NCBI GenBank assembly: GCA_947627455.1
Contig: CANQWC010000001.1
Span: 122,260 to 186,259 of the forward strand
DNA length: 64,000 nt
Direction of reading: 5' to 3'
DNA from: an uncultured Clostridia bacterium
GTDB lineage: Bacteria; Bacillota; Clostridia; Oscillospirales; Ruminococcaceae
The notes below the pieces were generated by a model. That model worked only from the letters and a program-made list of their open reading frames with translations. It was not told where the DNA came from and made no database searches. The position numbers and the translations under genes were made by a program. Position 1 is the first letter of the stretch, and each line of letters begins with the position of its first letter. Below, in pieces: positions 60,017 through 62,621 of this stretch.

Positions 60017-60850
60017 TTATACTTTTACTCTGTTTTTGACTTCGGCGGTTTCGTCGACGGTGAGAGTCTCGGAATATTCGACCGATTCTATCTCGCAGCC
60101 CTTGCCGATTCGGACGTTTCGGCCGCGGACGGTTTTGCTGACCGTATTTTCAAGGGTGATGTCGTCGCCCTCGATAACTCGGCAGGTGAAGATTTTATGC
60201 TCGGTTTTATTGAAGAGCTTGCTTATAATGTCGGGCGCTGAGCGGCTTGAATCGCGGACAGTGAGGGTAGTGCAGCCGATCTCACCGATTGTGATATCGC
60301 CGAGCTCTATCACGATGTTTTCGGCATTGAGAAGCCCGCTGACAGATGACGAGCCCGTGATGAAAGCCTCTTCGCAGGAAACGTCGCCTTTGATGTCGCC
60401 GCTGCCGTTCATCTCAAGCTTATGTGCTTCGACGCTTTTATCGATGTTTGCAGAGCCCGATACGCGGAGCGAACGGCAGGTAACAGTGCCCCAGATATCG
60501 CCCGAGCCGCTTATGGTGACATCGCCATTACAATCGACAGGGCCGTTGAGATTGCCCGAACCGCTCACGGTGATGTCGCCCTCACAAGTGACAGGGCCGT
60601 TTATATCGCCAGAACCAAATATTTTGAGAGATTTGCACCTCCATATCGGGCCGTTGATATCGCCTGAGCCGCTTATGGTGATGTCGCCCTCGCAAGTGAC
60701 TGGGCCGTGTATATCACCCGAACCTAAAATTGAAAGAGAACAGCAGTTCAACGGGCCGCAGATATCGCCCGAACCCGCTATCGTGACTTTTTCGTATAAC
60801 GAGCCGTCGGGAGTGAAATCGCTGCTGCCTAAAATATTTATGTTTGCCAT
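60017..60850 (-). CDS. Polymer-forming cytoskeletal (bactofilin/YhbF-like) protein with 18-aa repeats
   Basis: Repeated SGSGDINGPVTCEGDITI units. Confidence 0.8.
   Translation of the reverse strand: MANINILGSSDFTPDGSLYEKVTIAGSGDICGPLNCCSLSILGSGDIHGPVTCEGDITISGSGDINGPIWRCKSLKIFGSGDINGPVTCEGDITVSGSGNLNGPVDCNGDVTISGSGDIWGTVTCRSLRVSGSANIDKSVEAHKLEMNGSGDIKGDVSCEEAFITGSSSVSGLLNAENIVIELGDITIGEIGCTTLTVRDSSRSAPDIISKLFNKTEHKIFTCRVIEGDDITLENTVSKTVRGRNVRIGKGCEIESVEYSETLTVDETAEVKNRVKV
60500..60845. repeat. Imperfect 54-bp tandem repeats encoding 18-aa beta-helix rungs
   Basis: GGTGA(T/C)(G/A)TCGCC repeats at 60515, 60569 and 60677 (spacing 54 and 2x54). Confidence 0.75.
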
Positions 60851-60852
60851 GG

Positions 60853-61245
60853 TTATTCCTCCTCTGATTTATTGATTTTTTTGTTGATCTCGTCGATAAA
60901 GCTTATGCTGCTGTCGCCGATGTGGAGTATTACATCGCGGACATCGGAAAGATAAAACAGCTTGTCGCCCATCGACGTTACGATTCTGAGCTTCGGGATT
61001 TCGGCGGTTTTTTCGCCGAGCTCTATCTTAATATCGCCGAGCGACGAGACTTCTTTTTTTGAGAGTATCTCCTCTACCCTCTTGCAGATCAAATCGCGGT
61101 TGAAAAAGGTCTCCTGCCCCGTAAATGTCGACTTTTTTACGAGCCAGTCCTCGGGAATCAGCCCCATGCGCTTCCAGCGGTAGAGAGTTCCGTAGGAGAT
61201 TTTGTACTTTTCCAACAGCTCTTTTTTGGAGATCAGGTCGGACAT
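60853..61245 (-). CDS. YhbD-like (DUF4004, MerR-type wHTH) protein
   Basis: MSDLISKKELLEKYKISYGTLYRWKRMGLIPEDWLVKKSTFTGQETFFNRDLI; SD GGAGGTGA. Confidence 0.8.
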   Translation of the reverse strand: MSDLISKKELLEKYKISYGTLYRWKRMGLIPEDWLVKKSTFTGQETFFNRDLICKRVEEILSKKEVSSLGDIKIELGEKTAEIPKLRIVTSMGDKLFYLSDVRDVILHIGDSSISFIDEINKKINKSEEE

Positions 61246-61267
61246 CTGTTCACCTCCGTTTTTGAGT

Positions 61268-61316
61268 GTAACAATGTTACTGTCATCAGTGTAACATAAC
61301 ATTGTTACGCTGTCAA
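61268..61316 (-). promoter_or_regulatory. Promoter TTGACA-N17-TACACT with GTAACA/TGTTAC operator palindromes
   Basis: -35 61316-61311, -10 61293-61288; palindromes GTAACA-A-TGTTAC (61268-61280) and GTAACA-N6-TGTTAC (61291-61308). Confidence 0.75.
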
Positions 61317-61337: not shown

Positions 61338-61368
61338 AAAAATCGGCGAAGTCATTCAACTCCGCCGA
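61338..61368 (-). terminator. Terminator overlapping the stop codon of the PD-(D/E)XK-like gene
   Basis: CGGCGGAGT...ACTTCGCCG then ATTTTTTATAT on minus. Confidence 0.65.
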
Positions 61369-62140
61369 AATCATCGGTAAAATATTTGTTCATGCGGTAA
61401 ATGTAGCGTCGGCCGACGTTTTTGAAGTGCTCGACAGTGCCGAGATAGCTCAGAATATTAAGCGTCATGTTCGAGAGAGGCGTTGTAACACCCGCTGCTT
61501 TGGCAAAATCGACAGAGGTAAACTCGCGCGGGAGGCCCTCGGGGACGAAAATCAGATAGTCGGCGGGGTTGTCAAGAACCGCGGAATCGCCGATTGCAAA
61601 GGGAATTCTGTCGACGCGGGTCGAGCGCCTGCGCCTTTTGCGGCCCGATTGCGACACTCCCCCGCCCGAGAGCTCGCGCATTTCTTCGACATCGAAGAGC
61701 ATCAGGCGGACTTCAAGTTTATCCCAATCGAGGAAATATTTGATCTTGTAGAGCTCGGGAATCGCGTCGTACCAGCTGCCAACATGCCTGTAACGCTGTT
61801 TGCGGATAATTTCGCCCGACTCGGAGTCGATATAGACGAGCCTGCGAACCCGAGGTATCGGGTGGACGACGGTGACGTCGTAGCCCTCGAGCATGTAATA
61901 CTCGAGCTTTTCGCGCAGGGCGTTGAGGTTTCGCGTCTGGATCTCGGTGATGTGGTTTTCGTTGCAGATATCGGCTGTAAAGCGGCCGGCCTTTACTTCG
62001 TGGCAGGCCTTGGAGGGCTCTAAATAATTCTTTAAAAAGATGTGAAGGTACTTCTCGGAGAGCGTTCCGACGCCGTTGTCCTCATGAAGCTCCTCGAGGG
62101 GCTTTGAGGTGAGCTCCTCGAAGCGAAGATAGTCAGCCAT
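61352..62140 (-). CDS. Hypothetical protein with PD-(D/E)XK nuclease-like core and C-terminal helical domain
   Basis: LSEKYLHIFLKNYL, GRFTADICNENHITEIQTRNL (D-X9-ExQ pattern); C-term SVDFAKAAGVTTPLSNMTLNILSYLGTVEHF. Confidence 0.6.
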   Translation of the reverse strand: MADYLRFEELTSKPLEELHEDNGVGTLSEKYLHIFLKNYLEPSKACHEVKAGRFTADICNENHITEIQTRNLNALREKLEYYMLEGYDVTVVHPIPRVRRLVYIDSESGEIIRKQRYRHVGSWYDAIPELYKIKYFLDWDKLEVRLMLFDVEEMRELSGGGVSQSGRKRRRRSTRVDRIPFAIGDSAVLDNPADYLIFVPEGLPREFTSVDFAKAAGVTTPLSNMTLNILSYLGTVEHFKNVGRRYIYRMNKYFTDDFGGVE

Positions 62141-62585
62141 AGGGGTGCTCCGTGATGTAATCTTCGAGGATTTCGGCGGCGAGGGCGATAAGCCTCGGGC
62201 AGGGACGGGTCTTGTAGAACTCCTCTGTTCGCGGGGGCGAATAGGGGTCGGAGGCACCGCTCAGGCCCAAAAGCTCGCGGCAGGAAAGCGAGCCCGATTT
62301 CTCGCAAAAGCGCTTGCAGAGCGACTGTATGAGCTTGTAGTGAGCGTGTTTGAGCTCGGGGTCGGAGGTGTCGGAGTAGCCGTAAATAGCGCTCGCGGCC
62401 ATTACCATGCCGCTGACGGCGCCGCAGGTCTCACGCAGTCTGCCTATTCCCCCGCCGAAGCCGCTCGAAAGCTTTTTGGCGAAGTCGATATCAAGCCCGA
62501 CGAGATCGGAAAATGCGCAGAAAACCGCCTGAGAGCAGTTGCAGCCCTCAAGAAAAAGATCATAAGCAAGCTTTTTGCGATCCAT
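62133..62585 (-). CDS. C_GCAxxG_C_C family protein
   Basis: LEGCNCSQAVFCAF, CGAVSGMVMA, CKRFCEKSGSLSCRELLG. Confidence 0.88.
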   Translation of the reverse strand: MDRKKLAYDLFLEGCNCSQAVFCAFSDLVGLDIDFAKKLSSGFGGGIGRLRETCGAVSGMVMAASAIYGYSDTSDPELKHAHYKLIQSLCKRFCEKSGSLSCRELLGLSGASDPYSPPRTEEFYKTRPCPRLIALAAEILEDYITEHPYG

Positions 62586-62621
62586 CGCCGCACCGCCTTT
62601 CAAAATTAATGTCAAGGTGTT

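Follow-up and report, generated by a model that had tools for sequence, protein, structure and literature searches.

Introduction

Does the gene at 61352-62140 of this stretch encode a DNA nuclease, and, if so, would such an enzyme serve restriction, phage defence or some more general part of DNA metabolism? The earlier note on the window (the whole 64,000-nucleotide stretch analysed here) had proposed a stand-alone PD-(D/E)XK-type nuclease with a C-terminal winged helix-turn-helix (wHTH)-like domain. Both the fold and the active-site type are known; what the libraries and literature searched do not contain is a clostridial family, widespread and unnamed, that pairs them with a winged helix. 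None of four family libraries (Pfam, NCBIfam, PHROGs and PADLOC) has a model for the family, despite its occurrence at no fewer than 563 loci. The DNA-processing steps of gut Clostridia are poorly known and genetic tools for them are scarce; if the protein is a CoiA-type nuclease, it would give these bacteria a candidate DNA-processing enzyme, for repair, recombination or uptake, that can be tested. The active-site signature shared with CoiA could also be of use in classifying other orphan PD-ExQ nucleases.

The gene and its locus

The open reading frame named in the earlier note was exact in its coordinates. It translates from the minus strand to 262 residues plus a stop, and all the peptides quoted from it are present. 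The ATG start is at 62140, with GGAG upstream as the ribosome-binding site, and the aligned homologues share this start methionine. The homologues lend no support to a longer GTG start at 62257. Neither Pfam nor NCBIfam has a match for the 262-aa protein, and comparison of the family with Pfam, PHROGs and PADLOC gave nothing of note. The features of the gene are collected in Table 1.

The gene immediately upstream (62133-62615, minus strand) encodes a C_GCAxxG_C_C redox-type protein and has 8 nt in common with the start of the nuclease gene; the two are therefore probably co-transcribed in the source lineage. The pair recurs within the genus only, and in part of it. On the other side of the nuclease gene, two near-palindromic GTAACAnnGTTAC sites were observed 28 bp apart (61265-61311; four strand matches, compared with 0.24 expected by chance). 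They are upstream of a MerR-like DUF4004 gene (60853-61245, minus strand) and a bactofilin gene (60017-60850, minus strand), and as a candidate operator they probably belong to the MerR-like DUF4004 regulator itself.

Table 1. Features of the nuclease gene, in window coordinates
Feature	Position	Strand	Evidence
CoiA-like PD-(D/E)XQ nuclease gene with C-terminal winged helix-turn-helix, 262 aa	61352..62140	-	Translation, homologues, alignment
Nuclease domain, residues 21-189, alpha-beta-beta-beta-alpha-beta core plus long beta-hairpins	61574..62080	-	AlphaFold2 models
Motif E29-x3-H33-x3-K37, start of core helix 1	62030..62056	-	Conservation in 122 sequences
D57, predicted metal-binding aspartate, core strand 2 (54-60)	61970..61972	-	122/122; AlphaFold2 model
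E66-I67-Q68 (ExQ motif), end of core strand 3 (63-67)	61937..61945	-	E66 and Q68 122/122; model
K78, core helix 2 (72-84), candidate substitute for the lysine that ExQ lacks (motif IV)	61907..61909	-	122/122; model
Basic stretch SQSGRKRRRRSTRVDR, loop between long nuclease-domain beta-strands 142-158 and 172-189	61601..61651	-	AlphaFold2 model
C-terminal winged helix-turn-helix, about residues 200-251	61388..61543	-	AlphaFold2 model; Foldseek

Conserved residues and predicted fold

Eleven positions are invariant in 54 aligned proteins of the family: E29, H33, K37, E48, A56, D57, E66, I67, Q68, K78 and P180. When the alignment is extended to 122 sequences, K37, E48, D57, E66, Q68 and K78 are each retained in every one, and E29 and H33 in 121. 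The two elements expected of a PD-(D/E)XK site, an aspartate in strand 2 and a (D/E)-x-(K or variant) motif in strand 3, are thus both present and without exception in the 122 sequences, as D57 and E66-x-Q68. This was the conservation that the earlier note had asked for.

An AlphaFold2 model of the full-length protein, built with the family alignment, has a mean pLDDT of 89.9 and a pTM of 0.85. Its core elements (helix 31-40, strands 47-51, 54-60 and 63-67, helix 72-84 and strand 88-105) follow the PD-(D/E)XK order, and the model places D57 in strand 2 and K78 in helix 2, with E29 to K37 at helix 1 and E66 and Q68 where strand 3 ends, ie each in the element predicted for a nuclease of this type. 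The model is therefore consistent with the fold that the earlier note had suggested. The structural comparison that was to accompany it gave a less definite answer. The Foldseek list for the full-length model was dominated by winged helices and contained no structure match that reached significance, and the search was repeated with the nuclease domain modelled alone (mean pLDDT 88.9). The top 50 PDB matches then included BglII, YaeQ, BstYI, SfsA and McrC, none of them below E 0.05, and no solved PD-(D/E)XK member was matched at E<=0.001. The order of the predicted core is as expected, and the fold match to solved enzymes is suggestive only.

The C-terminal wHTH-like domain was borne out by the model and is supported by Foldseek. 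Two helices (209-216 and 220-232) precede two strands (236-242 and 245-250) which form a two-stranded wing. The leading full-length matches are wHTH domains of the ArsR, MarR and eS25 types, with a Foldseek probability of 1.0 but E values of only about 0.02-0.1 (best 0.019). The 'basic linker' that was said to lead to this domain has to be reassigned: in the model SQSGRKRRRRSTRVDR is a loop inside the nuclease domain. In the alignment its first half is an insertion limited to close relatives, and two arginines of the stretch are widely conserved (R175 in 104/122 and R178 in 105/122 sequences). A separate observation concerns a fused form of the protein. At L046 (1-1598) a 531-aa open reading frame joins an apparent Cof-type HAD hydrolase, as read from the sequence, to a member of the nuclease family, and no second case was seen.

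Relationship to CoiA and other nucleases

PD-ExQ has been recorded as the active-site variant of CoiA and BglII (PMC1189080). The earlier note had overlooked CoiA, which is the closest relative: judged from the sequence motifs, its PD-ExQ site is the closest known active site for the family. The family and CoiA (PF06054, COG4469) have in common PD-ExQ and, in the same order, E-x3-H-x3-K, a glutamate, the aspartate, ExQ and a lysine or arginine in helix 2. The whole ordered motif (E-x3-H-x3-K..E..D..E-x-Q) was found in 121/122 family sequences, 18/33 CoiA sequences and none of 2138 unrelated background ORFs; the expression had been drawn up with knowledge of both families, which leaves the background count fair but the CoiA count not independent. 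E-x3-H-x3-K by itself was found in 121/122, 31/33 and 39/2138, respectively.

The motif order is more telling than the profile comparison, in which the similarity to CoiA is weak. The hhalign set included CoiA, DpnI, SfsA, Rpn/PDDEXK_2, UPF0102 and BglII, with 69 unrelated neighbour families as the null. CoiA taken from relatives ranked best of 79 and aligned in the correct motif register, but with a probability of only 11%, and a deeper profile of CoiA from Bacilli fell to tenth, with a probability of 0.7%. None of 54 members matched the Pfam CoiA model at E<=0.1. Because the deeper set lowered the score, the link is made on motif order and membership of CoiA is not claimed; common descent of the two families is likely but unproven on these sequence comparisons. 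Their flanking regions differ. The N-terminal region of CoiA is rich in cysteine and histidine, with CPxC and HFAH, and the C-terminal domain is a different one, whereas the present family ends in the winged helix, and its homologues begin about 20-30 residues ahead of helix 1, with no CxxC and no zinc-finger-like N-terminus. As a minor observation, a CoiA-like domain at L157 (around 1501-1665) shares one long ORF (open frame 932 aa) with what reads as a UvrD-type helicase.

SfsA, UPF0102, BglII and Rpn were each considered as the closest family and set aside, their hhalign ranks being no better than those of unrelated neighbour families. BglII and BstYI share the PD-(D/E)XK fold and are among the top Foldseek matches of the nuclease domain, and the BglII active site has ExQ, as in the present family (PMC1189080); they are, however, Type II restriction enzymes, the present family is without a methyltransferase, and the matches (E 0.05-0.26) are not significant. 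The YhgA-like or Rpn nucleases (PF04754, PF12784) also resemble the family in the ExQ of motif III, which in YhgA-like proteins is paired with a basic residue in motif IV (PMC1913061), but many genomes of the genus carry several of them, their C-terminus is different and they match only weakly in profile (2.8%).

Distribution and inheritance

A whole-genome search showed that each of the 31 genomes of the genus, the source genome among them, has the gene once. Homologues, again one per genome, are present in 55/99 related genomes, or 24/63 when counted by genus. Even the lowest-scoring of them matches at E 2e-22 with about 31% identity, so that the conservation greatly exceeds what chance would give. 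Since many relatives are without the gene, it cannot be essential throughout the order. In a phylum-wide sample it was found in 12/399 genomes, and a scan of named genomes gave at least 563 loci. The relatives listed among these have clostridial names (Oscillospiraceae, Lachnospiraceae, Ruminococcus, Anaerocolumna and others), apart from a few generic bacterial labels and one MAG labelled 'Gastranaerophilales' (L107). The contig of the latter has a gyrase-subunit neighbourhood in common with Lachnospiraceae-type loci, and it is probably mis-binned.

Pairwise identity of the nuclease tracks that of the UPF0102 housekeeping family in 22 genomes (Spearman 0.65, a value reached in none of 2000 permutations), a sign that inheritance has been mostly vertical. 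No copies were found in the viral contigs or the phage and plasmid collections searched. The nuclease is thus encoded by a widespread clostridial chromosomal gene with mostly vertical inheritance, and not by an island gene.

Proposed function

The family would comprise metal-dependent DNA nucleases with a PD-(D/E)XK fold and a PD-ExQ site of the CoiA/BglII type. In such an enzyme the metal would be bound by E29, D57 and E66. Q68 would occupy the usual position of the lysine, with the positive charge supplied by K78 (and by K37 and H33 on helix 1), and the C-terminal winged helix would hold or select the DNA. The most likely cellular role is housekeeping processing of chromosomal DNA, ie the repair or recombination of DNA that is damaged or has entered the cell. 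The conserved residues, predicted fold, distribution and lack of a defence context are shown by computation, whereas catalysis, the use of metal, DNA as the substrate and the cellular role are inferred from them. Catalytic activity on DNA is the firmest part of this proposal and we regard it as quite likely, while the assignment to repair or recombination is tentative and falls a little short of an even call. The reading as a whole, a metal-dependent PD-ExQ nuclease with a winged helix, employed in housekeeping DNA processing and not in restriction or phage defence, is on balance the one that we favour.

The neighbourhood contributes one hint to it. The neighbours of the gene vary by lineage and are unrelated housekeeping genes. 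No conserved neighbourhood extends beyond single lineages, and no recurring partner gene that would point to one pathway was found. In five loci of the Lachnospira/Eubacteriales type, from a few related lineages (L067, L119, L126, L130 and L135), a DinG/Rad3-type helicase with a Cas4-like N-terminus, as judged from its sequence, is next or next but one after the nuclease. This hints at a repair role and does not prove it.

A more specific form of the proposal would make the family an undescribed, widespread clostridial branch of the CoiA type, in which a winged helix replaces the ends of CoiA and which, in gut bacteria without CoiA, serves core processing of DNA, possibly of single strands entering the cell. 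We consider this conceivable but doubtful. A main rival goes further and takes the protein as the clostridial functional counterpart of CoiA, processing the single-stranded DNA that enters through ComEC in natural transformation. Besides the common active-site signature, the distribution of the two nucleases is in its favour, as CoiA proper is found in only 3/99 relatives, against 151/151 genomes of a CoiA-bearing order; the six genomes of that order in the phylum-wide sample are all without the present family. ComEC is in 95/99 relatives, but it is so nearly universal that its co-occurrence with the nuclease is uninformative. No com genes lie beside the nuclease, a winged helix is found in place of the zinc-finger-like N-terminus of CoiA, and many relatives have neither nuclease. 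We therefore think a transformation-specific role unlikely.

The protein could alternatively be a transcription regulator, its winged helix binding operators and its nuclease fold binding DNA or a ligand without cutting. The resemblance of the C-terminus to ArsR, MarR and eS25 winged helices would suit such a role, but a dead domain would not need the metal-site residues, which are all conserved throughout the 122 sequences, and the idea seems to us improbable.

Restriction and defence were examined at the level of both the protein and its surroundings. In the window, the genes adjoining the nuclease have no methyltransferase match, in agreement with the earlier note; their Pfam matches are to other families. 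There is no methylase among the 25 commonest of the 85 Pfam families of 77 nuclease neighbours, nor any recurring defence neighbour. With no methyltransferase among the neighbours covered, Type II restriction-modification was rejected. Another rival reading takes the protein for a stand-alone defence enzyme, for example a DpnI-like restriction enzyme that depends on modification (type IV-like). In DpnI (PF06044) the PD-(D/E)XK nuclease is followed by a winged helix, the same domain order as in the present family, and the DpnI proteins retrieved are of similar length (255-266 aa). The patchy occurrence of the nuclease across genera would also be in keeping with defence. DpnI itself differs in having E-x-K and a cysteine-rich zinc-binding region, and homology to it was rejected: there is no Pfam DpnI match, and the profile probability of 0.4% is no better than that for unrelated families. 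PADLOC gave no convincing match to 54 members (best E 0.004, in scattered one-off families), and most of its matches to the neighbours look like generic metallo-beta-lactamase and ATPase domains. A gene that is always single-copy and vertically inherited, whose product has no convincing PADLOC match and which was located neither in a defence island nor on a mobile element, was not accepted as an anti-phage gene, and a defence role of the DpnI kind is in our view decidedly improbable.

The C-terminus matches ribosomal protein eS25 weakly in both profile and fold, which might suggest an RNA-processing enzyme with a winged helix of that type, but this is very improbable indeed, as DNA-binding regulators match the same winged helix equally well and, of the most similar known PD-ExQ enzymes, BglII cuts DNA and CoiA has been linked to its uptake (PMC1189080).
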